Part shown: one piece after another, positions 232 to 47,159 of the stretch
Layout of the letters: each line of letters starts with the position of its first letter
How positions within the stretch are numbered: position 1 is the first letter of the stretch
DNA from: Campylobacterales bacterium
GTDB lineage: Bacteria > Campylobacterota > Campylobacteria > Campylobacterales > Sulfurimonadaceae
Length of the DNA stretch: 47,167 nt
NCBI GenBank assembly: GCA_014859655.1
Contig: JACUTT010000014.1
Coordinates: forward strand, 1 to 47,167
Reading direction: 5' to 3'
Translations under genes and position numbers: made by a program
The notes under the pieces: model-generated
The model's database searches: none
What the model was told of the DNA's origin: nothing
What the model saw: the letters and a program-made list of their open reading frames with translations, nothing else

Positions 232-903
232 TTACGAAGCACTCTCTTTCATATCCAAAACTTTCTGTTGCTCTTTCTTCATTAACTGTTCTAACTGTTC
301 CACGTCCATATTGTCCAGCTCTTCTGCCGTGTAGACTCCGTTTGCGTTAAATATAACTGTATCCGGAGACTTCCCGAAGCGTGACTCTTTTGCAAGCTTG
401 TGGATCTCGCTCGATGCCTTGATATCCGCCTGGCGTACTTTTGTGATGTCCTTCTTCACCTGGTTGCTCAGGACAATGCTCGAGAGCATGGAGTTTTTAA
501 ACATCTGCGCGTCGAAGTAGTCGGCCTGTACCGAAGCGAGGAGGGTAATGTCTGTCTCGATGCGCGCCTGGAGTTCGGCGTTGTCACTGGCGATGTCAAG
601 GATGCCGTCTGCTTCAAGGCCGCCCTGTTTGGTCACGCCGTAGTATTGGTTGAGCCTGCTCTTCATCTCATCGTAAACGGAAGTAGCTTCGAGCTCTTCA
701 CGCAGGCGCTTTGCCGTCTGGGTTACCTTGCCTGCCTTTGAACCTTGCAGCCATAGGCCGCCGTACTCTTCGCGGTCGTCGTTCTTCCAGTCGCTAAGGG
801 TCGCGACGGCTACGCTCTCCTGGTCGCTTATGGAGCTTAAGGTCATATTCATAACCTCAAAGAGCGCGCGGCATCTAAACCTTATCTCTTTATCGTGTGC
901 CAT
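232..903 (-). CDS. HTH protein, possible terminase small subunit
   Basis: A 223-residue protein and the last gene of the leftward block. The N-terminal 45 residues look like a helix-turn-helix, with a WKND segment where small terminases and DUF1804-type proteins have their recognition helix. The rest is charged and helical. Small terminase subunits bind the packaging site and feed DNA to the large subunit. The large terminase is about 28 kb away, which argues for caution, although in the circular phage genome this gene would lie near the attachment site. Its ATG overlaps the stop of the giant gene (TAATG). Confidence 0.4.
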   Translation of the reverse strand: MAHDKEIRFRCRALFEVMNMTLSSISDQESVAVATLSDWKNDDREEYGGLWLQGSKAGKVTQTAKRLREELEATSVYDEMKSRLNQYYGVTKQGGLEADGILDIASDNAELQARIETDITLLASVQADYFDAQMFKNSMLSSIVLSNQVKKDITKVRQADIKASSEIHKLAKESRFGKSPDTVIFNANGVYTAEELDNMDVEQLEQLMKKEQQKVLDMKESAS

Positions 904-3900
904 TATTTCTCCTCAAGCTTTTTAAGTTCTGTTTCCAGCGAGCCGGTGATCTCTTTGAACATATCGGTGCGGGCAGCATACGCCGCGTTGATCTGTTTCT
1001 CTTTTTCTGCCTTGCTTAGTGTTTTGTCGTAGGTGATGAACTCAACACCGTTCTTGATATTTGTCAAAGTCTTGTTGTATCTTGACATCAGATCATCTAC
1101 TTTTTTGTAGGCACCTTTTTCTTCTTTGGCTGCATATTCTGAGATGTCTTTGCCGTTATCAAGGAATGCTTTTTTCTTTTTCAGCGTAAGGCTTGCTTTT
1201 ACCCCGGCGGCTTTCTGTGCGAGCTTGTAATACTTCTCGCTGTAGATCGTATGCGTTGGCTGCTCTTTGCCTCGGAAGCGGTAGGTGATGAACTCAAGAA
1301 CATTCTGCTCGAATGGGCGCGCTCCCCAGGCATCTGTATCCCATAGCATCTTTTCGGTGTTCTCCTCGATCATCTTTGCTGTTAGGCCAAGAAGGCCATC
1401 GACATAATGCTGTGTGAGGATAGGGCTTGCACCGGTCGCCTTACCGAACTTCCTATACAAGATAGGAGTGGAGGTATCATACTGATCGCTCAGATCGTCG
1501 AGGTTTTGTAGACTCGGAGGCACAAGAGGCGCGCCTGTCCACTTCTCATTCGTAAGATGTTCCCCAACAGGCTGGAAGAGGCCCGGAATGTCGCCAACAT
1601 TGAACATGGCTTTGAGGCCCCACACAAAATCTTTCAGGGCATCTTCGCCTTTTTCTGTATAGATAGCATCTGCCATTATCTCGGGTACCGTTGCAAAGGC
1701 AAAGCCGATATCAAATGGGCGGGGGATCTTAATCGGCTTATCTGAGCCTGGGATAAATAAAAACCAGTTCATCTGTTTTTGATCCTTGGATAACTTCTTC
1801 CAGCGCTCATCGTCTTTGTTGTTAAACCAAAGCGCAAGAGTGAAGCCTGCTATGATGGCTCCGTAGGCATAGAACTTTATCTTTTGTGTTTGAAGCTCTC
1901 CCATCTGATTTCTAAACTTGGCAGCGTTGCCAAGCTTCATCTCACCGTTTAGACTGAAGATACGGCGTGCAGTTTTATCCATACCGTTGATCGCGGCTTT
2001 CATGAACGGGACTGTTGCCATAGCCGAGGTTAGTGACTGATTGCTTCCTTTTATGGCGAAGTCTGTACTGATCTCTCTACCCTCAAAGCCTGCTTGCATA
2101 TTGCTTTTGCCTGCCTTCTTTGCCAGGGCAAACTCTCCGATGCGTGTACCATACTCAAATCTATCTGCGCCGCTTTCCATAGCGCTTATGACTTTGGACA
2201 TGATCTCTAGTCCTCTGTTCACCTCAAGCATACCCATAACATCAGTTTCACCGCCTAACGATCTGCTGCGTGTGCCATAACCGGCACCGCTGGCCATAAA
2301 CTCCTTGTAGGTCTTGGTGTTCATTGTAAAGTGGTACATCCCCGTGATAGAACTCATCACCGGAATAAAATTGTTCTTTGACAACACGGATGCACTTACT
2401 GTATCTCGGGTAAAGTTTGTCAGATAAAAGAGCGGGTTGTTTGTGATGTTCCAGGTGATGATGTTCTTTGCGCTCATCAAGCCCTGGACAACACTGTTGT
2501 AATTTACGCCTGAAAAAGAGGTAAGCGCCTCCACAAGCCCAACGTCGTGAACTTCAAAATAAACCTTCTTGCCGTCGATGATGGCCGTGTCGATGTATGC
2601 CGTTGTGGATGTAGGCTTGTGGCCGTGTGTCCAGAACTCAAGGGCGGATGGGTTAGCGAGCAGGTTGTCCTCGATCTCTGCAACGTCGATGATGTTCTCG
2701 CTTGAGATATTTCCGCTCAGAATAAGACCATCTTTACTTACGGTTACGCCCAGTTCCATCATCAGCTGCGCCACTTTCTTGGCCTGCTGCGCAAGATCGC
2801 TTTTGACAAGCTTATTCTCTGCACCGACGCGGGTTGCATAGACACCTCCCTGGCCGCTCTCTTCAAGCATAGTGTACAAAACAGATTTCCCGCGGGAAAT
2901 TAATGCCTGCTTGATGTTGCTCTCGATTCCGTTTACAATATTCTCCATGATGTTGTTAAGAGAGTGCGTGCCGCCGGTAAGACGTTGGCCGATCTTGGCG
3001 GGAGATACCTTGCCATCCATGATGCTCTCTGTTATCCTGTGAAAAGGGACATAGTTCTTATTCATCTCTTTGAAGTTCTCGCGCTGGTCTGAGGTGATGA
3101 GCTTCATGCCGACATAGAAGTCAAGCATCGCATTGTTGAACTCCTGGTACTCGTTGAAGATCGTCTCAAACTCCGGGTAGGTTTTGGAAAGTGCAAGTCC
3201 GGCTTCTATCTCCTGTGCGGTGATAAGGTTCTCTCTTCCCTGGGCTTTGAGTTCACTTGCACGCTTGGCGACAAAGAAGTCCTCGAGCAGCATGACACGC
3301 TCGACGCTTATCTTGGTAGCCGGGGCAAATATCTCGTTGAGAGGCTTGCCACTATAGCTGAGATCGCCGTTGTCAAGAACAGTCGGAACGCCTATGTTCA
3401 TCGCTGTGTGCATGATCGAGGCGCTTCCGTTTACGAGCTGCAGTGTTTTGTAGGCACTGTCGATAGCGTCCGGGGCAACGTCTCCGCGAATGGCAGCTTC
3501 GATGCGCTTGACGCTGTGTATCTTATCGATAGCAGACTGGCGGATATCTTTGCCTATTTCTGCCTGGGAGCGGTTGATCTTCTTTGCTATAGAATCAAGC
3601 TCTCCGCCGCGCTTGCCTCTGAGGCTTGCAAGCGGTCCCTGAAAATAGAACTTGTGCATACCGTCTTGCAGTACTTCTATCTTTAACTGTAGTTTTCTGT
3701 CTTTTGCCAGTCTTGCCTCAAAGTCTTTGACCATACCAGGTGCAACAAGCGCTACGGCATTGTAGTTGGTGAGCCACAGACGCACAAACTCCGCGAAGCC
3801 TTCGCTAATAACATGCTTTGGCTCGGTGGTATAGCTTAGGGCCTTGATCTCTTCTTTGTTTTTCAGGATCTCTTTCCTAAAGAAGCTGCCCTCTGCCTTT

Positions 3901-6900
3901 TTGCTAGTATTGTTGTGGAAGAAGTCAAGGAAGTGGGCCATCTCGTGCGCCATAACCTCAATGTCACTATAGTTCTTCACACGAATAGCGGTGGACTTGC
4001 GCTGATACACGCCCAGGGCTGAGCGACCTTTTATTTTTCCATCATAAAGACGGTTGCCTATGATGTCAGAAAGATAGACACGAAGGCTGTCCGCGTTGAT
4101 AGGCTTGTCTTTTGGCGGCAGGGCTACGGTTCTATTGCCTATCTGTATATTGTCGCTCTGAGGGCGGTGTGGAGCTCCTACGATAGCATAGTTTGGAATG
4201 TAGTTCGCGCCTGCCTCATCATAGCCGCTAAGACGGGCGTAATGGTTTGTCTCTTCTATCTGTTTGAGCTGCTTAGGCGTTGGTGCTTTCATGTAGCTGT
4301 TGGCTGTTTCGGCTTGCGGTTCAGCGGCTTGCATCATATACTGCGCGATCTCCTGCTTGGTTGCTCCCTCGCTTTTCAAGATCTGCTCAACGGTAAAGGC
4401 GGCCTTGATCTTGGTAATACTTACGTTCTTACCGTCAGTCGTGAACTCATCGGTAATGAACTTCTTGTCGGCAGCCTGCTGTGCCAGCTGATCTTTGCGT
4501 TCGTTCAGCTTCTCTTCTACGCCCTTGATGATAGTTTCATTCTCAGCGATGTTGCCCTGGTACTTCGCCTTGCGCTCCTTGAGTCCTTCGATATGCTTTG
4601 CAAGCTTCTCTTTTCTTTCGCTCGCATCTTTGATCGATTCGTACTTCGGATAGTTCGCAGGGGATAGCTGCTCGTCGATGTTCTTGATAGCATCGTCATA
4701 GTTCTTGTTAGACGACTGCTTGGTTCTGATATCAAGCTCAAGGTTTGAGATAAGGCGCTTGATATTGATCTCATCAGTAGCACTGTTATCGATAACACGC
4801 TGCTTGCGCAAACGCTCGCGTTCAAAAGGATTGCTCTCTAAGTCGATGACTGCCTGGTAGGGGTCGGTGGTGCTAGAGTTATCTATCTTGGATACGCCGT
4901 CCTCTACTATCAGATCGGTATTATCCGAAAAGCCGTACATGTCGTTAAAGCCGCGCTTGTTCATTACGATCTGATAGCTGCGCTTGTCAAAGGTCCCCAG
5001 CTGGAAGAACTGATGCACACGTACTTCCGGGTTCTCATTGCCCTGGCGAACACCTCGATTACTTCGCTGTTCAATCTCATCGGGGCGGTAAGGGATGTCA
5101 AGCTGATAGATGTCGGTTGTCTTGCGGTTCAGGTCTACGCCTACTCCGAGTTTAGAGGTATTGCCGATGATGACTTTTATTGTTCCGGCATTGTACATAT
5201 CCATGATACGGTTGAGCATGTCAGGCTTGATGGAGCTGTTTGAGATCTTGCCGGTAAGCGGATTTACAAAAGAGGCGCCATTGACAAAAACGACTTCGTT
5301 CTCATCAAACAAGCCCGTTGCCAAAATCTTCTCGCGCATCTCTTTGTGGGTAGAGGTCTCGCTGCCGTCACGGTTTTTTACAGTGAGGCGGTCCAGGAAG
5401 ATGATCTGTCCGCTGTTCGTATTCTCTTTGTACTGCTTCGATACAAGATCAATGGTTTTCAAGATCTTGTTGTTCTCTGTACCAGCGATATCGTTTTCTA
5501 TAAGATCATAGAGGCTGTCTGTATCCAGGGCAGATTTTCCCTTCTTGCCCACGTCGTACAAACGCAGGTCAATACTTGCACTGCGCCCGGCACCCATTGC
5601 GACAAGAGGAATCTCTGCTTCTTCGGGCAGCATATTTCCGGCCTTTACCTTTTTGCCGTCCTCGATAGCAGTGAGCAGGCGGTGCTGCACATCCTGAAAT
5701 ACAACTTCCCCGGCTTTGGACAGTTTTAGGTAGTGCTTGACATCGACCTGTTTAGGGCGAGGGAGGTCAGGCATATCGTTGAAGCCCCTGTAGTCCACAA
5801 AGCGGTCGAGTATCTTGCCCATCCAGTCGAGATTTTTCATCTGCGCCAAACCGTCGCGCTTGACGATAGCGCCTGTGCTGTCCGTTGTCTCATAGCTCTC
5901 TACATCATAGAAAGTATCGACAAAATCAGAAGAGGTAGAGATACCATACTCCAAAAGGATATTTTCATCCAGGTGCTGCAAGAGCGTGTAGAGCTCAAGC
6001 GGTGCGTTTGGAGTTGGCGTGCCGGTTAAAAGAATGACGTTATTGCCGTTGTTGTTCTGGCTCACATACTTGCTCTTGAAACGGAAGTCATACGAGCGCA
6101 TACTTCCCAGCGTCGCACTGTACGGCTCCTCTCCGCCCTTGATCTCTTTTGAGGTGAGGCTTTTGCCCTCTTTGTCAAAATACTTCATAGCGATAGATGT
6201 TCCCAGGCCGCCCTTTGCATCTTTGCCGGCAAAGCCGATGTTCTTATAATACTGTACTTCATCGGCGATAAGGCCGTCAAAGCCGAGCTTTGCAAAGTCA
6301 AATTCAACCTCTCCGCCGTAGGCCTGTTTGAGTCCGCGTTTCAAGGCCCTCTTCTTTGCTTCGGCAGATATCTGGTCTTTCTTGCCTTTTTTGCCTCCCT
6401 CTTCGGCTTCTTCTTCGGACTGTATCTGCTCGACGAGATCATCGACATACTCGCTCAGTACGCCGCTAGGCAGGCCGAACTTCTGAAACATCGTGTCGCC
6501 TATGATAGTGAAGTCGTAGCGGTTGTTGGCAAGATCGTAGGCCATCTGCTCTTTCTCTTCACGAGAAAGCTGCGTCCACTCTTTTGCATTGCCTTTGTTC
6601 TTTCCGCTTTGTATTTTTGGAAACTCATAGACAGTAGCATCAGGATAAAGCTCGCGCACGCTGGCTTCCCACTGTGCGATGGTATTTACGGGAACGACGA
6701 AGAGAGGCTTTTTCATAACACCCTGCTCGATAAGGTTCATTACCGCGACAATAGCCGTGATAGTCTTACCGCCACCGGGTGCAAAAGCTAGGACGCCTTT
6801 TTTGTTATAGACGATCTTTTCTGCGCCCTGGAGCTGATGCCCCTGCATTTTAAAGGCTTTGCCTCTAAATGACTTTGGAAGCTCTCGCAAAAGACGCCCT

Positions 6901-9900
6901 GACATTTCAGGACGAACATAGAAGTTTGAATGGCGGTTGTATCCATCAGTCAGGATCTCGGATAATCCCTGGGACTCTATGTAGTTCATAACCATTGGTA
7001 TGAGCGTTTCATTAAGCAGGCGGCCTACTTCCATTGTGCGCGTTATATTCTCGGCATCACTTTCGTCTTTGCCTTTTGGTGCCAGGGTCTTTTTATTCAG
7101 ATAGCGATTATAAATCTCTACCTTGTCTCCATGTCCGCCAAATACTTTTTTTATAATAAATAGCTCACCCTTGTTAATCTCAACCAGCTTCTCTTTGACC
7201 GCATCCGGCAGCCAGGACTCGTTACCGCGCACGGTTATATTTTTAAAAGGAATGAGCGCAGGGGTGATAGCTTTGAGTTTTGCAGACTGCTCTTTGTAGT
7301 GTGCCGCATCGATCTCACCCGAGGCTTTTAGTATCTCAAGAGCATCGAGCTTTGCATACACATTTCCTGCATAGTAGAGGAAATCAAGCTGCAGTGCATT
7401 GGAGTCTGAACGCACGAAGTCGCGATTGGCTTCAAGCGTTTCGATCTCCTTGGCGCTTAAAAGCTCATAGGCTCTTTCCGTGCTCAGTACGCCGTCTGCA
7501 TCTGCGTAGTAGACCGCTTTTTCTATTACAGGGCTGTCGGCCGAGATGCTAAGTTTTCCGCTGTCTTTAAAGCGGGTCTGCTGCTCATACACGGCGGCCG
7601 GGTTAAAGTCTTTGTCAAAGTAGCTCATAAACTCCTTGAGCTTTAGTTCGGCCCGGTGCTCTTTCATAAACCTCTTGTATGCCAGATCATTATGGGGGGA
7701 TTTAACATAGGTCTCTTTGTAGGCTTCGATCTCGCGCAAGGCCGAGGCCATAAGCCCCTTATCCTCATTGGCTATGCCCTCTTCGGTGAGGCGCATAATG
7801 CGGTTAAGCAAAAGCGTCTTTTGTGCATTATCACCGCGCAGCTCTTTGCCAAACATTGCAACTGCCTCAGTGTCCGTAAAAGCAATAAGCGTATCAAAAT
7901 ACCGAATGCTATTTTCTCCAATATCCATTTGAGGCTTGTCGGCAACTTTAAACTCTATGCCGTTTTCTTTAGCATACTTGACGGCATCGAGCATGCTTTC
8001 AAACTTGCTTTGGTCTGCCTTAGCTTTTGGAAGAGCTTTGTAGGGTTCATAGCTTATCTTGATCTTCTCAAAATGGGGCTCGCCTTTAACTACCCATCCC
8101 TCACGGCCCATCTTCATCTTGTCTTTTTCGATGACTACCGTATCGCCCAGCAGGTTCTCCGGATGCGCGATAAAGTATTCGTTCATCGGCTGGCCGTCTT
8201 TGTTTGCTATATTGACAAACTGGTTGTTGGTGGCTTCCTGGCGGCTCTTAACTCCGGCAGGTCTTTTCTGGATAAAGATGATGTCGATCATCGTATCGGT
8301 ATGGGCATTCTTGGCCTGTGACTTCTCCGGCAGACGGAAGGCACCGATAATGTCGCCTCTGTCCATCAGGTACTTGCGCAGGCTTCGCGCAGTTGTCGTT
8401 CCCTCCATCGTTCCGGTGCTGGTCATAAACGCAACGACTCCGTTGTCTTTTGCCTTGTCGATAGAGTGGGCAAAATAGAAGTTATGGATAGCTTTAAAGG
8501 CAGGCTTGATCGTCATTGCATGTTCGCGCATCAGCATCTGCTCGCTGGCAAAGGGAACATTGGAAACGATCAGGTCATAGTTCTTGCCCTGGAATGTTTC
8601 ATAGGTATCATTCACAAAGGTGTTGATCTGAGGGTAGAGGCGTTTGACCACTTCGACATTGGTAGTGTCGATATCGACAACATCCCACTGCGCGCCAGGC
8701 ATAAACCCTACAAAGTTGCCGCTGCCTACCGCAGGCTCTAGTACTTTGTTCATAGGAACATCTGCCTGCTTCAAAGCGCTATAGATCGATTGTACTGTTT
8801 CATAAGAGGTGTAGTGCTGGTTTACCGTGTTTTCATTCACTTCGCCCAAGCCGCCCTCGCCGGTATAGTGGCGCAGGACTTCGCGGTCGGCTTCGGTGAT
8901 CTCTTCGAGAGGCTTTTTGAGGATCTCAAGCGCGGCCGCATTAAACTTCTTGCGTTCTCCCTTGGTAAGTTCTACCGGGGCCTTGCCCTCTAGCGAATAC
9001 GCTTCAGGGCTATGTCGTTCATCAGGTTTTGGTAATACTGCGTCCCCATCAGTTCGCGTCCCTTGCTCAGGCGCATTATTGCCGCCAGCGGTTTGGTGTC
9101 CGCCCACTGGCTCATATCCTGCGGATACTCCAGCTTGATCGACTCCAGGCGCACCAGGTCCGTCAAGTCGTTGATCGCCGTTTCGTACTGCGCTGTCACT
9201 TCCTTCGACTGGGCCGGTGTCAGGTGTGCCTTGTTCTTGAGCTGGTACTCCAGCTGTATTATCTGCTCTGTCAGCAGCTGCACCGCGTGCTGTAGTTCCT
9301 CTTGTTTCATCTTTTTTATTCTCCTCTGCTTTTGCATCGAGTGTGGCAGCTTCGCGCTCTACCATACTCATTATATCACGGACAAATTCCTGAGATGTTA
9401 AATTCTCATTTTTAACCCATCGGTTCTGTCCGTCGTTGCTTTTGTTCCTATAGGTAAGGCGATAAAGTTCACCAGATCCCCATCGATCGCTAAAGGAGTA
9501 GGTGTCTTTGCCATTTTTATCTTCGCTTTGCGCGATATCGATACTTACGTATACTCCAATATCTGTATTTGGTTTAAAGAGTTTAAACGATACTGATCCA
9601 CCCGCAGGAGCGAGATTATCACTCACCCCCATAAATGGTAAAACTTTCCCTTTTTTATCTGTAGCTACTTCCCACCCGCCCAATGCTTTAGAAAGCTGTT
9701 GAACATACTTGGCTACGTCTTTTTGAATACGCTTTCCTACAGTTTTAGTTGGGTACTCATGCATAATGCCATCGGTACTATAAACCTTATTTACATCAAA
9801 GACGATTTTGACATTTGCGGGTATACTTCCAGCGTCAGGGCTTTGGCTTCCGGCGGTGTATGTCCCCGTTCCAGATACTTCTTGTACAGGGTCTTGGCTT

Positions 9901-12900
9901 CCTTTGCTACTTTGTGAAACTGTTGCAGTCTCTGTTGTTGCTGTTGCGGTGTCTCTTGGGTTTGTTCCATTTTCTTCTCCATCCAAATAGGTTTTTAATA
10001 GTTCCGTCAATGCCTCAAATTCTTGATCCTCTATCTCGTTAAGATCAAAGAAGTTTTCACTCATTTCATTATAGCGTTTAATTTCGTTTGAGAGATGAGG
10101 GCTTCCGGCTTTGGCAAGAGCATCCATAGCGCGGGTAGATAAAACGCTGTACTCTCCGTTCTTGGCATTAGTTAGTGCAGTGATGACGTCTTCATAACGT
10201 GTAGTGTTGCTCACCAGGTCTTTAGCCCAGGTCGGTACAGTGTACTCCTCACCGGCAGGCATATCAAAAAGAGCGTTCTGCGTACCCTCAAATGCAAAAC
10301 CATTTTGCACTCCTGGAGTCTTCTTCTTTTCTGTAGGCATAAAATCATAGGCGCGGCTGTACTCGGTTGCGCTAAATGATTGGCCGCGTGAGATCTCATG
10401 CTGCTCGTCTATAGCGGCAATATCATTTGCAGATAGTTTCTTGTATTCGCTGTCGGGGTCTTTTTGGTTGAAAATCTGTTTAACAGCTTCTGCTGCTGCA
10501 TCTTCGGAGCCTCCTATAGGTATCTCTGCTGCCTCTCTTATTGCTTGTGCTCTTTGTGATAGCGGTTTAGTATTTGCAATATTGGAACTGGCAGCGGTAT
10601 TAATGTCGGTAACATCAGTTGTCAAGTTTTCCTTGACAACTGCCTCTGCTTCAAGTTTTACCTCATTATTAAAATCTTTTGCACTAATACCAAAATATTT
10701 TTGAGTGATTTCATCTTCTGTTCTAGAGAGAGGAACTTTCACAAACGCCTTTGTTCCATCTGGAGTTATAAAACGAAACTTATCTGCGCTACTTCCATCA
10801 TATTGTACCAGATCGCCTTTTTTTAAATCTATCTCAGGAATATCAACTTGCATAGTAAATTGTTTTAATGGTGGTGCTTCTATGTCTCCGACATTAATGT
10901 CGGTAACACCCAATCGCGCTTCCGACTTAGGCTGACCTATGACGGGCGTCGCTATAGCGGCAGTTGCGGGTTGCGCTGGTACTGAAGTTTGCGCCTGCAG
11001 GTCTTCAAGCTCGAAGCGCTCATCTATCGTGAGCTCATCTTCGGTCTTTGCCTGGAGTTCGGTTAGGCGGGCGGTGTCTTGTTTCGCTTCGGGTTCGGGC
11101 TGGCCTATGATGGGCTTTTCTATAATAGGAGCCTCTGATGGATTAACAATGTTCTTTATTTCATTGTCTATGATTAATGCGCGGTCAAGGTTAGCAGTTT
11201 CTTTCTCTACTAAAAGAGAAACTATCTGTTCCCTTTGCTCTTTTGTCCCTACAAAACTTAATTGGCCTGCAGGTATCTCTGAGGCTTTACCGTTAATACT
11301 TGTAATTACCAGAATATCTGACGCGGGAACAAAATCACCCTCTTGGTTTAAAGTAAAATCTGATTGGGATGCAGTTTTCCCCTCCTTAATACTTTTAGCT
11401 TTCTGATAAATACCACTTTGGCTTTCTGAAAAATGTTTTTCAATATTAAATCCATCATAAATTTCAGTTGTAATAATTCTGCTTTTATTTGCATTTGTTG
11501 AATAAGTAACTTTTTGCCCGAGATCATTTACTGTAACTGGGAGTTCTATCAGTGTAGGCTCTGCCGCTTTTGGCTTTAGCGGTTCTGCGCTGCCGATCTC
11601 CTGCTCTAGTTCCGCAAAGCCTGCGTCGATTGCATTGAGGCCGTTATTGTCGCTGACATTAAGGCCCTCGGCTTTGGCTTCGGCTACGACCTGCTCTTGC
11701 AGGGTTACGTTCTCTATAGCATCGGCGGGGATAGCCTTGTCGGGATGGTTTATTGCGAGGTTGGCAAACTCGTCCTGTATGGTCTTGATCCGGGACTCAT
11801 GCTCGGCCTTGAAACTTGTAAACGCGGCATCGTCGATGTTGAGCACCAGGCCGCTGCCCATCATCTGCTTGTTATAAGCGTCCTGGATATGTGCGTCTCT
11901 TAGCTGCTCTTTCTTTGTCTGGGTATAAGCCTTGGTAACTTCGGAGCCGGTAGCTGTTGCCGTACTCATTGCCCCACCCATCACAAAACCTGCAAGCCCG
12001 CCCCACAGTCCGCGCTCTAAGCCCTCATCGAATGTGGCTCCTTTTTCTGTACCGGCCTGTTCGGCGACATATTCCAATCCGCCTTCTTGCACTATTTCAG
12101 TGGCAGTCTCTTTTATAGCACCCTTGCCAACAGCGGCGCCGATGATCTTGAGGGTTTCTTTTATAGGTGCATCCATTGCGGATTTGCCAACGGTTGTTAC
12201 GATATCGGAGGTCATTGCTTTTAACCCGAGCTTGTCGAGAAGGGCGCTTCCGGTAGCAAGTGGAAGGGTGATGGCGATGTCTTGCGTAGTGGCTTTTTTG
12301 CGGCCGTCGTTTTTGGCGCGGGTATCGGCCATCTCGTAGCTTCTCGATGCTATGTATGCAGGAAGCTGCAGGACCATGTGCCCCATATCGGCAACACTTT
12401 GCGGGCCCTGCTCTGCGCCGAAGTAGAGGGCTTCAAGCCAGGTATCAACATCGAAGAGGCCGCCTGCTTTAAATGCCGCTTTTACCTGGTCGGCGGTATG
12501 AACATCTTTTTTATCGAGCTTGTCTTTTGTGATCCAGTTTGCCAGGTCACCGAAGAACTGCGTATTATGATCGCTGTCTATGCCTACGGCTTCATCTTCA
12601 AAGTGCTGCACAAACTTCAAGCTGTTTCCGAGGAGTTCGTTGCTTCTATTTACCATACCGGCCATTGCATTGCCGCTTGGTGCAGTCTTGCTCACGAACT
12701 CGCTGCCGTCCCCGGTCAGGATCTGCGCGTTCTCTGTGCCGATCTGAATATCCTGCTCGGCAGGCGAAAGAGCCTTGCCCGTCTTCTCATCAAAGGCAAA
12801 GGCGCGGGTTGCTGTGCTGTCATCGCTTTGAACCAGGGTATTGTCGGGCGCATAACTGAAAGGCTCTGGTGTTGGAGCGGGGGCTGGCTTCGGCATAGTT

Positions 12901-13208
12901 CCGTCACGGTTTGGCGCTATAGGGCTGTCATGTATTCCAGGGTCGGCGAGGGTGGGGGAGACTTCTGTTGCTATAGCAGCAGGTGTCGGGATAAAGGCAT
13001 TGACCAGCTTGTCGCGGGTATCGCTGATGTCAAACTCAATCTGAGCATTTACAAAATTGCTCTTTATCTCTTTTTGCTGTTTTACATCAAGTTTTAAGAA
13101 CTCTTCATCGGCACTTTCTTTATCAAAAAAGTTCTGCGCTATCGTCTGCTTTTGTTCAAGAGGGAGGGACTGAAACTCTTTATCTTTAAATATATCCAGT
13201 GGTTTCAA
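903..13208 (-). CDS. Giant polyvalent protein: methyltransferase, helicase, peptidase
   Basis: A 4101-residue protein of the large polyvalent (DarB-like) class known from phages and conjugative elements; such proteins are often packaged and injected to protect incoming DNA. Visible parts in order: an N-terminal region with a Gly-rich, possibly membrane-active stretch near 370-420; an N6-adenine methyltransferase (motif I LEPAVGSGNF near 1490, catalytic SNVPF near 1549); an SF2/SNF2-type helicase (Walker A APGGGKT near 2141, DEVQ near 2315, LLTGTPTPN near 2390, motif VI RSNRGVRQG near 2713); a zinc peptidase motif HEMAH near 3087; and an LPD38-like C-terminal region with a membrane segment near 3776 (PGSDKPIKIPRPF near 3815). 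The start is TTG, with AAAGG six bases upstream. Disordered linkers separate the domains, and two carry overlapping small genes. The virion-injected role is inferred from the family. Confidence 0.85.
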   Translation of the reverse strand: MKPLDIFKDKEFQSLPLEQKQTIAQNFFDKESADEEFLKLDVKQQKEIKSNFVNAQIEFDISDTRDKLVNAFIPTPAAIATEVSPTLADPGIHDSPIAPNRDGTMPKPAPAPTPEPFSYAPDNTLVQSDDSTATRAFAFDEKTGKALSPAEQDIQIGTENAQILTGDGSEFVSKTAPSGNAMAGMVNRSNELLGNSLKFVQHFEDEAVGIDSDHNTQFFGDLANWITKDKLDKKDVHTADQVKAAFKAGGLFDVDTWLEALYFGAEQGPQSVADMGHMVLQLPAYIASRSYEMADTRAKNDGRKKATTQDIAITLPLATGSALLDKLGLKAMTSDIVTTVGKSAMDAPIKETLKIIGAAVGKGAIKETATEIVQEGGLEYVAEQAGTEKGATFDEGLERGLWGGLAGFVMGGAMSTATATGSEVTKAYTQTKKEQLRDAHIQDAYNKQMMGSGLVLNIDDAAFTSFKAEHESRIKTIQDEFANLAINHPDKAIPADAIENVTLQEQVVAEAKAEGLNVSDNNGLNAIDAGFAELEQEIGSAEPLKPKAAEPTLIELPVTVNDLGQKVTYSTNANKSRIITTEIYDGFNIEKHFSESQSGIYQKAKSIKEGKTASQSDFTLNQEGDFVPASDILVITSINGKASEIPAGQLSFVGTKEQREQIVSLLVEKETANLDRALIIDNEIKNIVNPSEAPIIEKPIIGQPEPEAKQDTARLTELQAKTEDELTIDERFELEDLQAQTSVPAQPATAAIATPVIGQPKSEARLGVTDINVGDIEAPPLKQFTMQVDIPEIDLKKGDLVQYDGSSADKFRFITPDGTKAFVKVPLSRTEDEITQKYFGISAKDFNNEVKLEAEAVVKENLTTDVTDINTAASSNIANTKPLSQRAQAIREAAEIPIGGSEDAAAEAVKQIFNQKDPDSEYKKLSANDIAAIDEQHEISRGQSFSATEYSRAYDFMPTEKKKTPGVQNGFAFEGTQNALFDMPAGEEYTVPTWAKDLVSNTTRYEDVITALTNAKNGEYSVLSTRAMDALAKAGSPHLSNEIKRYNEMSENFFDLNEIEDQEFEALTELLKTYLDGEENGTNPRDTATATTETATVSQSSKGSQDPVQEVSGTGTYTAGSQSPDAGSIPANVKIVFDVNKVYSTDGIMHEYPTKTVGKRIQKDVAKYVQQLSKALGGWEVATDKKGKVLPFMGVSDNLAPAGGSVSFKLFKPNTDIGVYVSIDIAQSEDKNGKDTYSFSDRWGSGELYRLTYRNKSNDGQNRWVKNENLTSQEFVRDIMSMVEREAATLDAKAEENKKDETRGTTARGAAADRADNTAGVPAQEQGTPDTGPVEGSDSAVRNGDQRLDGPGAPGVDQAGVSAGYEPVGGHQTAGGNNAPEQGTRTDGDAVLPKPDERHSPEAYSLEGKAPVELTKGERKKFNAAALEILKKPLEEITEADREVLRHYTGEGGLGEVNENTVNQHYTSYETVQSIYSALKQADVPMNKVLEPAVGSGNFVGFMPGAQWDVVDIDTTNVEVVKRLYPQINTFVNDTYETFQGKNYDLIVSNVPFASEQMLMREHAMTIKPAFKAIHNFYFAHSIDKAKDNGVVAFMTSTGTMEGTTTARSLRKYLMDRGDIIGAFRLPEKSQAKNAHTDTMIDIIFIQKRPAGVKSRQEATNNQFVNIANKDGQPMNEYFIAHPENLLGDTVVIEKDKMKMGREGWVVKGEPHFEKIKISYEPYKALPKAKADQSKFESMLDAVKYAKENGIEFKVADKPQMDIGENSIRYFDTLIAFTDTEAVAMFGKELRGDNAQKTLLLNRIMRLTEEGIANEDKGLMASALREIEAYKETYVKSPHNDLAYKRFMKEHRAELKLKEFMSYFDKDFNPAAVYEQQTRFKDSGKLSISADSPVIEKAVYYADADGVLSTERAYELLSAKEIETLEANRDFVRSDSNALQLDFLYYAGNVYAKLDALEILKASGEIDAAHYKEQSAKLKAITPALIPFKNITVRGNESWLPDAVKEKLVEINKGELFIIKKVFGGHGDKVEIYNRYLNKKTLAPKGKDESDAENITRTMEVGRLLNETLIPMVMNYIESQGLSEILTDGYNRHSNFYVRPEMSGRLLRELPKSFRGKAFKMQGHQLQGAEKIVYNKKGVLAFAPGGGKTITAIVAVMNLIEQGVMKKPLFVVPVNTIAQWEASVRELYPDATVYEFPKIQSGKNKGNAKEWTQLSREEKEQMAYDLANNRYDFTIIGDTMFQKFGLPSGVLSEYVDDLVEQIQSEEEAEEGGKKGKKDQISAEAKKRALKRGLKQAYGGEVEFDFAKLGFDGLIADEVQYYKNIGFAGKDAKGGLGTSIAMKYFDKEGKSLTSKEIKGGEEPYSATLGSMRSYDFRFKSKYVSQNNNGNNVILLTGTPTPNAPLELYTLLQHLDENILLEYGISTSSDFVDTFYDVESYETTDSTGAIVKRDGLAQMKNLDWMGKILDRFVDYRGFNDMPDLPRPKQVDVKHYLKLSKAGEVVFQDVQHRLLTAIEDGKKVKAGNMLPEEAEIPLVAMGAGRSASIDLRLYDVGKKGKSALDTDSLYDLIENDIAGTENNKILKTIDLVSKQYKENTNSGQIIFLDRLTVKNRDGSETSTHKEMREKILATGLFDENEVVFVNGASFVNPLTGKISNSSIKPDMLNRIMDMYNAGTIKVIIGNTSKLGVGVDLNRKTTDIYQLDIPYRPDEIEQRSNRGVRQGNENPEVRVHQFFQLGTFDKRSYQIVMNKRGFNDMYGFSDNTDLIVEDGVSKIDNSSTTDPYQAVIDLESNPFERERLRKQRVIDNSATDEINIKRLISNLELDIRTKQSSNKNYDDAIKNIDEQLSPANYPKYESIKDASERKEKLAKHIEGLKERKAKYQGNIAENETIIKGVEEKLNERKDQLAQQAADKKFITDEFTTDGKNVSITKIKAAFTVEQILKSEGATKQEIAQYMMQAAEPQAETANSYMKAPTPKQLKQIEETNHYARLSGYDEAGANYIPNYAIVGAPHRPQSDNIQIGNRTVALPPKDKPINADSLRVYLSDIIGNRLYDGKIKGRSALGVYQRKSTAIRVKNYSDIEVMAHEMAHFLDFFHNNTSKKAEGSFFRKEILKNKEEIKALSYTTEPKHVISEGFAEFVRLWLTNYNAVALVAPGMVKDFEARLAKDRKLQLKIEVLQDGMHKFYFQGPLASLRGKRGGELDSIAKKINRSQAEIGKDIRQSAIDKIHSVKRIEAAIRGDVAPDAIDSAYKTLQLVNGSASIMHTAMNIGVPTVLDNGDLSYSGKPLNEIFAPATKISVERVMLLEDFFVAKRASELKAQGRENLITAQEIEAGLALSKTYPEFETIFNEYQEFNNAMLDFYVGMKLITSDQRENFKEMNKNYVPFHRITESIMDGKVSPAKIGQRLTGGTHSLNNIMENIVNGIESNIKQALISRGKSVLYTMLEESGQGGVYATRVGAENKLVKSDLAQQAKKVAQLMMELGVTVSKDGLILSGNISSENIIDVAEIEDNLLANPSALEFWTHGHKPTSTTAYIDTAIIDGKKVYFEVHDVGLVEALTSFSGVNYNSVVQGLMSAKNIITWNITNNPLFYLTNFTRDTVSASVLSKNNFIPVMSSITGMYHFTMNTKTYKEFMASGAGYGTRSRSLGGETDVMGMLEVNRGLEIMSKVISAMESGADRFEYGTRIGEFALAKKAGKSNMQAGFEGREISTDFAIKGSNQSLTSAMATVPFMKAAINGMDKTARRIFSLNGEMKLGNAAKFRNQMGELQTQKIKFYAYGAIIAGFTLALWFNNKDDERWKKLSKDQKQMNWFLFIPGSDKPIKIPRPFDIGFAFATVPEIMADAIYTEKGEDALKDFVWGLKAMFNVGDIPGLFQPVGEHLTNEKWTGAPLVPPSLQNLDDLSDQYDTSTPILYRKFGKATGASPILTQHYVDGLLGLTAKMIEENTEKMLWDTDAWGARPFEQNVLEFITYRFRGKEQPTHTIYSEKYYKLAQKAAGVKASLTLKKKKAFLDNGKDISEYAAKEEKGAYKKVDDLMSRYNKTLTNIKNGVEFITYDKTLSKAEKEKQINAAYAARTDMFKEITGSLETELKKLEEK
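8990..9310 (-). CDS. Nested gene in +1 frame of the giant gene
   Basis: A 106-residue ORF lying wholly inside the giant gene, same strand, +1 frame. It starts MKQEELQHAVQLLTEQ and is a balanced, helical, coiled-coil-like sequence. The giant frame here is a low-complexity Ala/Gly/Asp/Pro linker, so the nested frame looks like the more protein-like reading. AGAGGAG lies 10 nt before the ATG at 9310, a strong ribosome binding site in the middle of another gene. Function unknown. No similarity could be tested. Confidence 0.6.
   Translation of the reverse strand: MKQEELQHAVQLLTEQIIQLEYQLKNKAHLTPAQSKEVTAQYETAINDLTDLVRLESIKLEYPQDMSQWADTKPLAAIMRLSKGRELMGTQYYQNLMNDIALKRIR
9791..9970 (-). CDS. Second nested gene in +1 frame of the giant gene
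   Basis: A 59-residue ORF inside the giant gene and in the same +1 frame as the nested gene at 8990-9310. It starts MEQTQETPQQQQQRLQQ, a Gln-rich helical segment, and continues with a Lys/Ala-rich helix. GGAG lies 6 nt before the ATG at 9970. An in-frame ATG at 9982 is the alternative start, but the GGAG falls inside that extension. The giant frame here is a Thr/Ala/Ser-rich linker. Function unknown. Confidence 0.5.
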   Translation of the reverse strand: MEQTQETPQQQQQRLQQFHKVAKEAKTLYKKYLERGHTPPEAKALTLEVYPQMSKSSLM

Positions 13209-23157: not shown

Positions 23158-23367
23158 TCATTTTCCCTCGTCCTCTTCGATAGACTTCTCGCAGTGGTTC
23201 TTGTCAAAGAAGTGCAGCATCTTGCAAAGCGCATATCTCCAGCTCTTATCGCCGTCTGCTACATGCTTACCCACCCGTGAAGAGATAGTTTCGTCTGGGT
23301 CGCCGTTGAACACAGTGTTCACGAACTGGTCAAGCGATATTAAGAGGTTCCAGAAGTATCTTCTCAT
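23158..23367 (-). CDS. Small lysis-region protein with DPDETISSR motif
   Basis: 69 residues (MRRYFWNLLISLDQFVNTVF then NGDPDETISSRVGK), ending in an acidic/basic tail with several His and Cys. The N-terminal hydrophobic helix followed by Gly-Asp-Pro-Asp-Glu-Thr is a pattern I recall from small phage proteins near lysis genes, without a known function. It overlaps the upstream stop by 4 nt and lies 13 bp before the holin. Confidence 0.6.
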   Translation of the reverse strand: MRRYFWNLLISLDQFVNTVFNGDPDETISSRVGKHVADGDKSWRYALCKMLHFFDKNHCEKSIEEDEGK

Positions 23368-23885
23368 AGCAGCCTGTCCTCGCTCTTCTGTCTCTCCCCG
23401 ATGATCGCGCCCACGGACTGCGAGTAGAGATCAGCTTTCTCTATGACCTTGCCTACCAGGTATGCCTTATCAACTCCGCGGCTAAACGCAAGACTGTCGA
23501 GTAGTGGCGTGTAGGCCAAGGGGTCGAGCGCATAGGCGCGTGCTTCGGACTCTTGCTTTGTCCAGGACGCGCGCTCGCCTTCGGGGATGCCTGCGATGAG
23601 TAGCTGAAGCTTCGCATCAAACTCGTCGTTGATAACCTGCAGTGCGCGTTTCATCTGTGCCGTCTCTTTTACGAGCAGATAGAAGTCTGCCTGCGTAAGA
23701 TATGCGCACATGATCTCTGCGCTCTGAGATGCGATAAGCGCTGTGATCTCTTCCTCGGTTCCAGCCTCGATGCTAACTGCTGGTACGTCAAAATAATTGA
23801 CCTTTACAGTCTCACTGCCTCCTCTAAACTCCAGCACCGTGTGCTCCGCCTGCACTTTTTGAAAACTCACATATTTAATAAACAC
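23364..23885 (-). CDS. Tail-fibre assembly-like protein
   Basis: 173 residues. The C-terminal half has the ingredients of tail-fibre assembly chaperones and related DUF4376-type proteins: SWTKQESEARAY, then TPLLDSLAFSRGVDKAYLV and a helix ending in GAIIGERQ. The start overlaps the end of the reverse transcriptase gene by 19 nt. Its place in the same operon as the DGR-diversified fibre fits a role in fibre folding; inference. Confidence 0.5.
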   Translation of the reverse strand: MFIKYVSFQKVQAEHTVLEFRGGSETVKVNYFDVPAVSIEAGTEEEITALIASQSAEIMCAYLTQADFYLLVKETAQMKRALQVINDEFDAKLQLLIAGIPEGERASWTKQESEARAYALDPLAYTPLLDSLAFSRGVDKAYLVGKVIEKADLYSQSVGAIIGERQKSEDRLL

Positions 23886-25141
23886 GATTGACTCCTCCTT
23901 GGTAATAATTTAAAAACGTCCGCACCAATCAATAACCTCTTATAATATTTCATCGTGCCGGTCGAAACCGCGTGGCCGATTAGTGAGATTATTGACTCAA
24001 TCTTTAGCTTTTTGATGGCTCTCTTCATCTTGTAGATGGAGTGTTTTCGCACAAATTTGATACTCTTCCAGGTGCGGTACCCCACGAAGTTGATCCCGCG
24101 TTTTATCTTCTGTATATGCCAGTGGCTATATTGCAGATTGAGCTTCTCTTGCGCGAACTTCTCACACGCGTCTTTGATATGCTTTGCTTCTTCGAGCGAC
24201 ACGCCTACGACCATAAAATCATCCACGTATCGCACATAACTCTTTGCTTTTAGCTCTCGTTTAATGAAATGGTCAATGGCATTCATGTAAGTGAGCGCGT
24301 AGATCTGGGAGAGCAGGTTTCCTATGGGTATGCCCGCCGGTTCTTTCATCTGCGAGAACTTGCACATCATGTCCACAAAGCGCACATCTTTGATCTTCTT
24401 TTCAAACATGCTCCTTAGGATGTCGCGGTCTATCGAGTAGAAGAACTTTTTGATATCCATCTTTACAAAATAGTTCTCGCCGGAATACTTCCGCATCTCA
24501 TTCTGTGTATAAACGCTGGCCTTGTGCGTACCACCGCCTTTGCGGCAGGCGTAGGAGGTATCGATGAAGCTGCTGTCAAAGATCGTGTAGATGACGCGAT
24601 AGATCGCATGCTGCACTACAAGATCTCTGAATGCAGGAGCGCTGATCAGTCTCTTTTTTGGCTCATAGACATAGAACTGGATATAGTCACGCGGCTCATA
24701 GTTCTGGCTATGCAGCTCTTCATGCAGTGCCTTGAGCTGCGCGCCCAGGTTGATCTCAAATTTCAGCGTTGATCGCTTCTTTCGTTTTCCTTTTCGCGCA
24801 TCTAAAAATGCAAGGTAGAGGTTTTGCATCGTAAATGCTTTTTCAAATAAAAATCCGACACGTTTTGTTTTTTTCGATTTGGCCTGGCGTTCAACATTCA
24901 AGTTACTAAAAAGGCTTTCCTCATTTTTGATTTCGCTTTTAGCAGGACAGCACATCCCTATATTTCCAGTATCAACCGTTGTTGTTTCAGGTTTGGAAAC
25001 ACAGTCCCGCCCGCCGACATTGTTGTTCGAATTCGTGCGCGTGTTATTCAGATTCATCGCGGAGACACCGGCATCGGAAGAGTTCGTCCAATTGCCGCCC
25101 CGAATGCAAGCTTTCATATTGCTGTGATGCCCTTTGTTCAT
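23867..25141 (-). CDS. DGR reverse transcriptase
   Basis: The RT domain has the DGR-type motif IPIGNLLSQ near 268-277 (SQ where retrons and group II introns have QG) and the catalytic YVDD near 303. Conserved early runs RKGKRKKR, PAFRDLVVQHA and SYACRKGGGTHKA match the family. It copies the template RNA with adenine infidelity for retrohoming into the fibre gene. The ORF opens at 25141, overlapping the Avd stop (TAATG), and its first 45 codons are the template repeat read in frame. Other in-frame ATGs exist (for example 24955); the conserved RT part begins near residue 95. Confidence 0.93.
   Translation of the reverse strand: MNKGHHSNMKACIRGGNWTNSSDAGVSAMNLNNTRTNSNNNVGGRDCVSKPETTTVDTGNIGMCCPAKSEIKNEESLFSNLNVERQAKSKKTKRVGFLFEKAFTMQNLYLAFLDARKGKRKKRSTLKFEINLGAQLKALHEELHSQNYEPRDYIQFYVYEPKKRLISAPAFRDLVVQHAIYRVIYTIFDSSFIDTSYACRKGGGTHKASVYTQNEMRKYSGENYFVKMDIKKFFYSIDRDILRSMFEKKIKDVRFVDMMCKFSQMKEPAGIPIGNLLSQIYALTYMNAIDHFIKRELKAKSYVRYVDDFMVVGVSLEEAKHIKDACEKFAQEKLNLQYSHWHIQKIKRGINFVGYRTWKSIKFVRKHSIYKMKRAIKKLKIESIISLIGHAVSTGTMKYYKRLLIGADVFKLLPRRSQSCLLNM
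25006..25111 (-). repeat. DGR template repeat (TR)
   Basis: 106 bp aligning without gaps to the variable repeat at 25582-25687. On the coding strand all ten differences are TR adenines replaced by C, G or T in VR. The 3' end is a GC-rich 13-bp block (25006-25018) identical in both repeats, as expected for the initiation-of-homing region. TR is rich in AAT/AAC codons at the variable sites. It lies between Avd and the RT domain, the BPP-1 order. Confidence 0.95.
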
Positions 25142-25533
25142 TACAGTTTCCCCGCTTCGCGGAGTTTATTCATCCATGCGCCGATGATCTTTCCAATCTC
25201 GTCGATGACGTTTGACAAAGCCAAAAAACGCTTTGGCGCGTCGACGCTCTGGTTTTGTTTCCCGTCACGAAAAGCAAAATAGCCCAGCTCGTTCGCGAGA
25301 TAGATCTGCATGCGAAGCTTTTGATGCTCGACATCGAGATCAGTGAGCGTCGTCTTCTTGTAGTAGCGCTTCTGACATTCCGTTATCAGATCGTAAACAC
25401 GGTAGGCCGTGTTGCGGATATTGTTCGCAAGCGCATACTTTTCAAATCGAGGAAAATGATTTAGGTATATTGTCATCAACTTCATCATCTCCATATATTT
25501 TCGGTTGAGGACCGCTTCGCTATGGATACCCAT
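25141..25533 (-). CDS. avd: DGR accessory protein Avd
   Basis: 130 residues from the ATG at 25533 (GGGGGAG 6 nt upstream). Four long amphipathic helices (NRKYMEMMKLMTIYLNHFPR, RNTAYRVYDLITECQKRYY, QKLRMQIYLANELGYF, FLALSNVIDEIGKIIGAW) match the four-helix-bundle fold shared by Avd proteins and 23S-rRNA-IVS proteins. Avd forms a pentameric barrel that binds the RT and template RNA. It sits between the VR-bearing fibre gene and TR. Confidence 0.9.
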   Translation of the reverse strand: MGIHSEAVLNRKYMEMMKLMTIYLNHFPRFEKYALANNIRNTAYRVYDLITECQKRYYKKTTLTDLDVEHQKLRMQIYLANELGYFAFRDGKQNQSVDAPKRFLALSNVIDEIGKIIGAWMNKLREAGKL

Positions 25534-25554
25534 TACAAGCTCCCCCACTCACTG

Positions 25555-25579
25555 TCGTTCCCTACACACATAAGAACGA
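25555..25579 (-). repeat. Hairpin just downstream of VR
   Basis: TCGTTC (25555-25560) and GAACGA (25574-25579) form a 6-bp inverted repeat with a 13-nt loop, 2 bp from the VR end and spanning the fibre stop codon. In BPP-1 a hairpin immediately after VR stimulates retrohoming; this is the equivalent position, although the stem is shorter and the loop longer. Confidence 0.5.
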
Positions 25580-28465
25580 GGCCCGCCCGCCGACACTGTC
25601 GTTCGAAGACGTGCGCGTGTTATTCAGAGTCATCGCGGAGACACCGGCACCGGAAGAGGGCGTCCAATGGCCGCCCCGAAGGCAAGCCACTTGATCCACA
25701 AGATTTCGGTAAAGTCCGTCATTTCCGAACTCTGTCGTTCCCGTTGCGCTCACCCCCGTTGCTGTCGGTATGCCAAAGGCTGTGCGCTTGTATGCTACGC
25801 TTGCTCGGTCGGTGCTCATCGCGAATACTTGGTTGGTTCCGTTTCCAAAATAAGTTGTAGTCGCATCGAAAACAACGTCCGATATATCAATCACGTCGTA
25901 AAGATTTATATCGTAAGCTCCGCCCGCTCCTGCGGTTATGCTGTCATTTTTGATGGTTCTGATGTCTACGGACTCTTTTAAGACAAGGAAGCCATTTGCT
26001 GTATAGCGGATGAAGCCCGAAGCGACTTCCCACATGTTCCCGTTCAGGTCCGCTATCCCACAGGCTTGCCCGTTGTGTGTAGTCTTTGCGAAGTTGCTGG
26101 CCGAGCCCGTGAGCCCGCAGTTTAAGTATCCAGATGCCGTGTAAAGTACGCTTGAATCTTGGGCGTCGCTTAGAGCGTTGTTGTTGCAGCCCTTCGGAAG
26201 TTTCGGTAATACATCAATGAATGCGCAGGCCGTAGTAGAAATAGCAGCTTCGCCGTGCGCCTTGGCAATTCGTGCGAGCATGGAGTAATGAAACACGGGA
26301 GTCAAAAATGCTTCTGCCGACATCGTTTTTACCGCAGTGTAAAGTCCGCCGTAATTGTTTGCAGGAGTGCCAGCAAGCGCAGAGATGGGATTATGCCCGC
26401 TGTTCGTGCTCATCGGGTCTTTGAACGGCTGAGCGGAGGCTATCGTGCCGTTGCGAGTTATGCTGTATTTTGCTACAAATACACCCGGGATTTCAATGCC
26501 GCCGTTGATGAAACTGCGATCAAGCACAAACCCCGTTTCCGCTATGTCACTAAACTCAAAAGTGTTGCCAGTGATTTTAAAGTAGTGCTTAGGAATAAAA
26601 CAGAGGATAGCCCCGCTATACCCGTGCATGTAGTTCCCGTAGTTGTCATGTCCAAGCACATCATGACCGCTCAGAGGAATAGCTCCTATCTGCTCATACA
26701 TAGCCTTGGGAGCAGTAGCAATACCAAAGCCGATCTCGCCCGGCTGTCCGAGGGAGTAGATCAGAGGGTCGAGGCCGGTGCGGATGTCGACGTAGTTTTT
26801 TGAGGCCGCTTGTTGTGCTGCTGTCGGGTCGGGGATGATTGGGCTGCTAGTTAGCGTGAGCACACCGGCTTTTATTTCGTCTCCTGTTTTGTGAAGTACA
26901 GAAGTATCATCAGCTTTTAATGCAATCGCTTGGCCTTGTAAAGTAGAAACAGGCTTGTTTACATCCGAGGTATTATCTACGTTGCCAAGTCCAACTTGAG
27001 TTTTAGTTACACTATGCGGGTTTGCTATGTCGCTGGTGTGGGCTGTCAAGTCGGCCATATAGACATCGCTGTCCTGGCCATTATAGACATTGAAGTCACT
27101 TGTTGTGGTGTCTGTAAAAGTAATGCGGTAAGTGTCCGTTCCTCCGCTTTGTGCGGCAAAGCCGCTAATGTCGGTTGTGGACACAAAGGAGATGGAAGCA
27201 ATGCCATTCCCGGTTGCGCCGGTATCTCCGGTATCGCCTTTTCCAAAAGGTGAACCTATCGACCAGTCTGCCGATGTTGCACTGAGCTTGAAGTAGATCA
27301 GCGCTTCGTCAATGGCTAAAAATGAAAATCCTGATACCTGAAGATCGTACAGGCTTTTTTGAGCAGCGAGTCCAACGGCATTTACCGCAAAGGCATCACC
27401 CTTGTCCCCTTTTGCTCCCTGGGGAATACCAAAGGTAAACTTGCCATCTACCGGGTTATAGCTGACTGTGACCAGACTGCCGGGGATAAGTGTCTGTGCC
27501 TGGCCGGTTATGCTCTTGATCTCATTTGACTTTTCAAGGGCGAGCTGCGCGCTTGTAGCGGAGGCCGTAGCGCTCACTCCAGATGCAGTAGCTTTTTGTG
27601 TTGAGATAAGAGCTTGATCTGTTGCTATTTGAGCCTGGGCTGATGCAGCAAGAATACCGCTTATATCTGCGTAGATGGCATTAAGCTCGACAATTTTAAG
27701 GGCTATTGTATTGACATCAAGGATACTCGCGGCCAGGGTATTTACAGAGGCTATGCTTCCGGCAGTCGTTACGACCGAAGCAAGATCGGTATGCACGGCA
27801 ATGATCTTTGCGATCTCTACCTGCAGTGCGATAAGTTCATCGATACGCTGTGAAAGGGTTACAATACTGTCGATATCATTTCCGAGCTGGATAATATCAC
27901 CGATTCTATTGGCAAGTGTCTCGAGGCTTGACGTAGTCTTTGCCCAAAAATAGACTGGCTTTGTATCCACTACGGTTCCGCTATAGACATGTAGCTCGAT
28001 GCGCTCGATGTTGCTAGCTTTTCCGTCAGCATCGCGTACCCGGATCATAGTGGGCAAATCACCGAAGGCTTCGGCAACTACAATCTCAGTATCAACAACC
28101 TGCGCATAAAGCAGATGGCTTGTGATATAGTTCTTAATGTCTGCATGGGAGGTAAGTTCAAGAACTCCGCCTGCGCCATTGTCAAAAGGCATCTCAAGCT
28201 TTACTCCGCTCACCAGAACAATATCAGCCTGGCTATAAGCCGGGAGCTCGACAAGGCTCAAGTTGTTAAGCGCAAGATCGATATCAATCTTTCTATTTCC
28301 AAGGTAATTCCCCTTTTGGAAATCCTCGATGATTAATGTCAGGTTCACATTTGACAATGCTGCCAGTTTATCAACCACTTCCGGGCTGAACAAATCGCTT
28401 GTCGCCACTACGGCATCAAGATTCTTACTAATCTTATTAACGCTCTCTATAAAACTTTCTGCCAT
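25562..28465 (-). CDS. Tail fibre with DGR-variable C-type-lectin tip
   Basis: 967 residues, the receptor-binding fibre. The N-terminal part is helical and Ala/Ser-rich. Two collagen-like Gly-x-x tracts (GAKGDKGD near 350, GDTGDTGATG near 410) and a fibre repeat (GLGNVDNTSDVNKP near 488) follow. The C-terminal third has the formylglycine-enzyme type C-type-lectin pattern, with DLNGNMWEV near 805 and RGGHW near 930. The variable repeat encodes about residues 927-961, so only the exposed tip changes. It is followed by Avd, TR and RT. Confidence 0.88.
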   Translation of the reverse strand: MAESFIESVNKISKNLDAVVATSDLFSPEVVDKLAALSNVNLTLIIEDFQKGNYLGNRKIDIDLALNNLSLVELPAYSQADIVLVSGVKLEMPFDNGAGGVLELTSHADIKNYITSHLLYAQVVDTEIVVAEAFGDLPTMIRVRDADGKASNIERIELHVYSGTVVDTKPVYFWAKTTSSLETLANRIGDIIQLGNDIDSIVTLSQRIDELIALQVEIAKIIAVHTDLASVVTTAGSIASVNTLAASILDVNTIALKIVELNAIYADISGILAASAQAQIATDQALISTQKATASGVSATASATSAQLALEKSNEIKSITGQAQTLIPGSLVTVSYNPVDGKFTFGIPQGAKGDKGDAFAVNAVGLAAQKSLYDLQVSGFSFLAIDEALIYFKLSATSADWSIGSPFGKGDTGDTGATGNGIASISFVSTTDISGFAAQSGGTDTYRITFTDTTTSDFNVYNGQDSDVYMADLTAHTSDIANPHSVTKTQVGLGNVDNTSDVNKPVSTLQGQAIALKADDTSVLHKTGDEIKAGVLTLTSSPIIPDPTAAQQAASKNYVDIRTGLDPLIYSLGQPGEIGFGIATAPKAMYEQIGAIPLSGHDVLGHDNYGNYMHGYSGAILCFIPKHYFKITGNTFEFSDIAETGFVLDRSFINGGIEIPGVFVAKYSITRNGTIASAQPFKDPMSTNSGHNPISALAGTPANNYGGLYTAVKTMSAEAFLTPVFHYSMLARIAKAHGEAAISTTACAFIDVLPKLPKGCNNNALSDAQDSSVLYTASGYLNCGLTGSASNFAKTTHNGQACGIADLNGNMWEVASGFIRYTANGFLVLKESVDIRTIKNDSITAGAGGAYDINLYDVIDISDVVFDATTTYFGNGTNQVFAMSTDRASVAYKRTAFGIPTATGVSATGTTEFGNDGLYRNLVDQVACLRGGHWTPSSGAGVSAMTLNNTRTSSNDSVGGRASFLCV
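25582..25687 (-). repeat. DGR variable repeat (VR)
   Basis: 106 bp at the 3' end of the fibre gene, homologous to TR at 25006-25111. The ten differences give Ile to Leu, Asn to His, Asn to Pro, Asp to Gly, Asn to Thr, Asn to Ser (two bases), Asn to Asp and Asn to Ser. The unchanged scaffold (RGG-W, AGVSAM, LNNTRT, VGGR) keeps the fold. Beyond the GC-rich end one more A-to-C difference (25581) continues the pattern. Confidence 0.95.
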
Positions 28466-47113: not shown

Positions 47114-47159
47114 GCTCATAACGGAGTGGTCCCGAGTTCGAGTCTCGGAGGATCCACCA
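47114..47159 (+). pseudogene. 3' half of split host tRNA (CAT), attR
   Basis: From the core GCTCATAACGG it continues with anticodon 3' stem CGGAG, variable loop, T stem CCGAG/CTCGG with a TTCGAGT loop, acceptor AGGATCC and CCA. It pairs fully with the 5' half at 13-54 and not with the intact tRNA at 154-230. It has no 5' half of its own. Confidence 0.85.

Follow-up and report, generated by a model that had tools for sequence, protein, structure and literature searches.

A predicted phage diversity-generating retroelement with its template repeat inside the reverse transcriptase reading frame and within a covarying RNA fold

The window, a stretch of 47,167 nucleotides that makes up one whole contig of a Campylobacterales draft genome and represents a 47-kb prophage, carries a cassette that is very probably (about 94%) a phage diversity-generating retroelement (DGR), in which a template repeat (TR) would be copied into a variable repeat (VR) by way of a folded RNA. 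Judged from its sequence, the cassette, whose features all lie on the minus strand, appears to be a complete and ordinary phage DGR of a known but uncommon layout, with intact-looking components. The complete DGR proposed in an earlier note on this DNA was supported by every component test that was run.

Two 106-bp repeats (25006-25111 and 25582-25687) align without gaps on the minus strand and differ at ten positions, each of them an adenine in the TR, exactly as had been noted before. Adenine accounts for 24 of the 106 bases of the TR core, which gives a hypergeometric P of 6e-8 for ten adenine differences out of ten. The continuation of the pattern into the flanks, also noted earlier, was found as A>C at 25005/25581 and AAA>GTG at 25112-25114/25688-25690. 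The pattern ends at 25115 (G versus A) and 25002 (G versus C), where differences at other bases appear on either side; for this reason, the repeat is taken to be 112 bp long, with the TR at 25003-25114 and the VR at 25579-25690, and over this full length 14 of the 14 differences are located at TR adenines, of which there are 28.

A scan of IMG/VR retrieved 31 loci with RT identities of 56-81%, all but one of which (30/31) contain a TR/VR pair, and further pairs were found in one Sulfurovum MAG and in three other genomes (G021, G031 and G106) from the family of the host. The earlier note had held that non-adenine TR/VR differences in relatives would speak against its reading, which the relatives did not bear out: among 24 distinct pairs, including that of the window, 345 of the 657 TR adenines are changed (161 to G, 94 to T and 90 to C), versus 40 changes at bases other than adenine. 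Three loci (L014, L015 and L031) account for 25 of these 40, and 11 pairs are free of any such change. Two closely related loci, L020 and L021, have TRs identical at 108 of 109 positions and RTs that are 97.6% identical; their VRs agree at 86 of 109 positions, and 19 of the 23 differences fall at TR adenines. The repeat could in principle be an ordinary duplicated gene end, with an adenine bias arising from chance or selection, an explanation for which nothing speaks except the repeat itself. The P of 6e-8 obtained from the window alone, together with the same bias in relatives whose repeats adjoin RT and Avd, refutes it, leaving it a negligible probability. As to the spectrum of substitutions, A to G is almost twice as frequent as A to T or A to C, and the commonest non-adenine change is T>G (15/40).

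The RT open reading frame (424 aa; 23867-25141) starts at an ATG that overlaps the stop codon of avd (TAATG), with the RT fold beginning at about 24862. It matches Pfam RVT_1 (E 2e-19) and PHROG 1423 (E 5e-115), and the closest solved structure is BPP-1 bRT (8ub7; E 3e-60). Among 22 sequences IGNLLSQ is invariant and YVDD nearly invariant, fitting the (I/V/L)GxxxSQ signature of motif 4 and YxDD. The avd gene (135 aa; 25141-25548), of which the conserved start is probably the ATG at 25533, matches Pfam PF22296 (bAvd; E 3.7e-18) and PHROG 3206 (Avd; E 2.3e-20). The Avd and the DGR-type RT (GNLLSQ and YVDD) recognized previously were both confirmed.

The target gene (25562-28465) encodes a tail-fibre-like protein of 967 aa, with PHROG tail-fibre matches at residues 347-563, and a function as a tail fibre is likely. 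The VR was found at its 3' end, where the earlier note had placed it as encoding the tip of the fibre, and ends 14-17 bases ahead of the last base of the stop codon. The C-terminal 400 or so residues would constitute the variable domain. A Pfam search with the last 400 residues returned no match, even at E 1, but an AlphaFold (AF2) model of residues 560-967, built from 20 sequences with a mean pLDDT of 68 and VR loops of low confidence, matched TaqVP, a solved DGR variable protein, in Foldseek (5vf4; E 8.8e-10, probability 1.00), the next matches being weak ones to Mtd. By this fold match, the VR domain is predicted to be C-type-lectin-like. Since 16 codons of the TR contain adenine, about 16 residues of the lectin-like tip may change, and the position of the VR and the modelled fold suggest that the phage is able to retarget its receptor binding.

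Phage DGR targets carry a hairpin with a GC-rich stem of 7-10 bp (PMC3240598) and a GRNA loop. No perfect inverted repeats were found behind the VR in the window, and a candidate hairpin-like element, GGGAAC-GACA-GTGAGT (25547-25562), with a GRNA loop, two closing pairs and tandem G.A pairs, emerged instead from the comparison of relatives. In most of these it lies 17-28 bases past the VR, and its closing pairs vary between C-G and T-A and between A-T and G-C. The GACA loop of the window fits GRNA; unlike the GC-rich stem of 7-10 bp, the stem is short with tandem G.A pairs, and is at its weakest in the window. One relative, L010, has a second VR (6723-6834, minus strand), which belongs to another gene and lies on the other strand from the first. 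Both share one TR, to which the second VR is matched by adenine changes, and an element of the same type follows it, which supports a role of the element in target choice.

The earlier note missed that the TR lies inside the RT frame. The order VR-avd-TR-RT agrees with that of BPP-1, as stated there, but the TR is located within the RT open reading frame, which starts at ATG 25141, and not between avd and RT; it encodes residues 10-46 and is read in the frame that the VR has in the target. In the window and 25 IMG/VR relatives, here termed the fused clade, the distance from TR to RT is 134, 137, 140, 143 or 146 bases, lengths that are equal modulo 3, and the interval is free of stops. In an unfused sister clade (L026-L029 and L031) stops and other frames intervene between TR and RT, and the spacer is followed by AGAGGA, which resembles a Shine-Dalgarno sequence, and by an ATG. 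Among the fused loci, the frame has no conserved start codon downstream of the TR, and in L022 there is none at all. Given the stop-free, modulo-3 spacers and the lack of such a conserved start, the most economical interpretation is that the TR is translated, and ribosomes would pass along TR and spacer before reaching the RT proper.

It is, on the other hand, conceivable that the RT starts behind the TR, the upstream frame being open by chance and the TR never translated, so that the DGR works as that of BPP-1. Such an arrangement would agree with the AlphaFold prediction for the RT, in which residues 1-93 are disordered (pLDDT about 30), and with the apparent absence of protein-level selection on the flanks of the TR, where the ratio of synonymous to nonsynonymous single-base codon differences is 0.44 (nine codons before and 46 behind), compared with 3.18 in the RT and 3.68 in the TR. 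Five spacer lengths that all keep the frame without a stop, next to a sister clade that has its own Shine-Dalgarno sequence and ATG together with stops and other frames, argue against it, as does the want of a conserved start, and the authors who described ACA1 favour read-through in their phages, stating that translation of the TR yields an N-terminal extension (PMC10612066). For these reasons, initiation behind the TR is considered unlikely, and read-through translation is preferred.

The contrast between the ratio of 0.44 and those of about 3.2 and 3.7 indicates that the flanks are preserved as RNA rather than as protein. A helix closing the TR, H1, is formed by a 5' arm at 25121-25132 (GGGCATCACAGC) and a 3' arm in the spacer at 24945-24956 (GATGTGCTGTCC), and a hairpin at the 3' end of the TR, H2 (24958-25004), pairs 24994-25004 with 24958-24968; both show covariation. 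Because H1 and H2 abut, the TR would be held in a loop of about 115 bases, and its 3' end would meet the foot of H2. A third hairpin, H3 (24935-24943), reads GC-UAAAA-GC followed by a GCGAA-type sequence, and one of its two pairs shows compensating change, in five relatives. In the consensus fold of fused and unfused loci 93% of the cells are paired, with 44 two-sided changes against 11.4 after shuffling (0/500) and against 4-7 in slid controls. Indeed, the unfused sister clade retains the RNA fold although it lacks the fused frame. The covarying H1, H2 and H3 point to a structured template RNA that includes the spacer behind the TR. An Rfam search of 24700-25800 gave no match with E up to 1.

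The support for H1 resides in covariation among related sequences, single sequences often performing no better than their shuffles. Single-sequence duplex and helix statistics were also obtained for BPP-1, Bise, VP58.5, ACA1, BalMu-1, phiARM81mr and a Helicobacter prophage, and only the last of these lay clearly above shuffles, so that a general occurrence of H1 across DGRs is no more than suggested. In BPP-1 the start and stop of copying have been reported to depend on the flanks of the TR (PMC12875486), and the compensating changes that support a TR-closing helix agree with this dependence.

The components, the adenine bias, the covarying fold and the open frame were obtained directly, and from them we infer the following sequence of events. 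The RNA of the TR and of the spacer behind it would fold so that helix H1 and hairpin H2 enclose the TR as a loop, and the RT with Avd would copy the TR into cDNA, misreading adenines. The cDNA would then take the place of the VR with which the tail-fibre gene ends, homing being guided by the 3' end common to TR and VR and by the hairpin element that follows the stop codon. The RT coding sequence would begin with this same RNA, and ribosomes that start at the avd stop would make an RT with a loose, TR-encoded tail. To make the RT, ribosomes would have to open H1 and H2, and they would be blocked when RT and Avd occupied the fold. As a tentative proposal, less likely to be right than wrong, a single RNA would thus be folded template and coding sequence at once, making template use and RT synthesis mutually exclusive and the cassette self-limiting. 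If true, the tail of the RT would also be an unvarying version of the VR peptide.

Loss of the cassette has occurred within this group. In G009, which contains a phage of the same genus (L064), the VR domain is 84% identical to that of the window, a stretch of 47 bases, running from the end of the VR to the far side of the element, matches the window exactly and the gene that adjoins the cassette in the window (23364-23885) is kept directly behind a deletion scar, but avd-TR-RT is absent by deletion. At the deletion (L064 10200-10500; G009:C12) about 29 codons of avd remain, fused to the final 19 codons of RT; the neighbouring genes, judged by eye, form a contractile-tail module, which sets this phage apart from that of the window. 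A search of G009 for this RT revealed no further copy, and the loss of avd-TR-RT has left the VR of this phage frozen.

Since G009 lost avd-TR-RT and kept its VR domain, freezing does occur in this group, which lends some plausibility to a once-active DGR that is now silent in the window prophage as well. There, however, avd and RT are without stop or frameshift, and there is no non-adenine TR/VR difference, which drift would add in time; a frozen VR in the window is accordingly improbable, and a DGR that may still be active is the preferred interpretation. In two pairs of loci, L020/L021 and L015/L016, RT and TR are nearly or fully identical and the target gene before the VR is 64% and 87% identical, respectively; target genes seem, from these comparisons, to be swapped and the cassette retained.

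The prophage contains genes for terminase, portal, major head protein, lysozyme, holin, repressor and integrase. It splits a tRNA-Met(CAT) gene of the host, the halves of which lie at 13-54 and 47114-47158 of the window; the break falls in the anticodon region, at a core of 11 bases (GCTCATAACGG). A tRNA search identified neither half as a tRNA and did identify the joined flanks. The prophage has a complete tRNA-Met(CAT) of its own at 154-230, which perhaps replaces the broken gene. An open reading frame of 4101 aa at 903-13208, with LPD38, SNF2/ResIII helicase and N6-methylase domains, corresponds to a large polyvalent phage protein.

The lineage, with about 30 viral loci and a Sulfurovum MAG, offers a test of the template RNA fold by natural evolution, and its fused and unfused clades, together with the G009 deletion, allow the respective needs of the RNA and the RT to be compared in nature. 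The placement of the TR within the RT gene is not new, but represents a published class of DGRs of which the window cassette is a further member. DiGReF group 3 comprises DGRs whose TR overlaps the RT open reading frame (PMC3521204), at its 5' or 3' end, and such an overlap is present in the window and in 25 IMG/VR relatives; in group 1, the BPP-1 layout, the TR is upstream of and outside that frame, which is not the case here. No difference from group 3 that would exclude the window cassette was found. In the Pseudoalteromonas phages ACA1 and ACA2, Vibrio VP58.5 and Aeromonas phiARM81mr, the TR likewise follows avd directly and falls within the 5' end of the RT gene as annotated, but their RTs are only about 35% identical to that of the window and their spacer sequences differ. 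The BPP-1 DGR (mtd-avd-TR-brt) shares the gene order, Avd, adenine-only changes and a C-type-lectin target, its RT being 37% identical over the RT proper, and it has a possible H1 (GGGCAG/CUGUCC), unproven by single-sequence statistics; it differs in having the TR between avd and brt, a brt that begins behind the spacer and a target hairpin with an 8-bp GC stem and a GAAA loop. Among named phages, the closest RT (48%) is that of Pseudomonas phage Bise, in which a possible 10-bp H1 (GGGCGGCCUA/UAGGUCGUCC) occupies the same place and the annotated RT, unlike that of the window, starts behind the TR. Both BPP-1 and Bise share with the window the string GUCCUGC...GCGAA at the matching place in the spacer.
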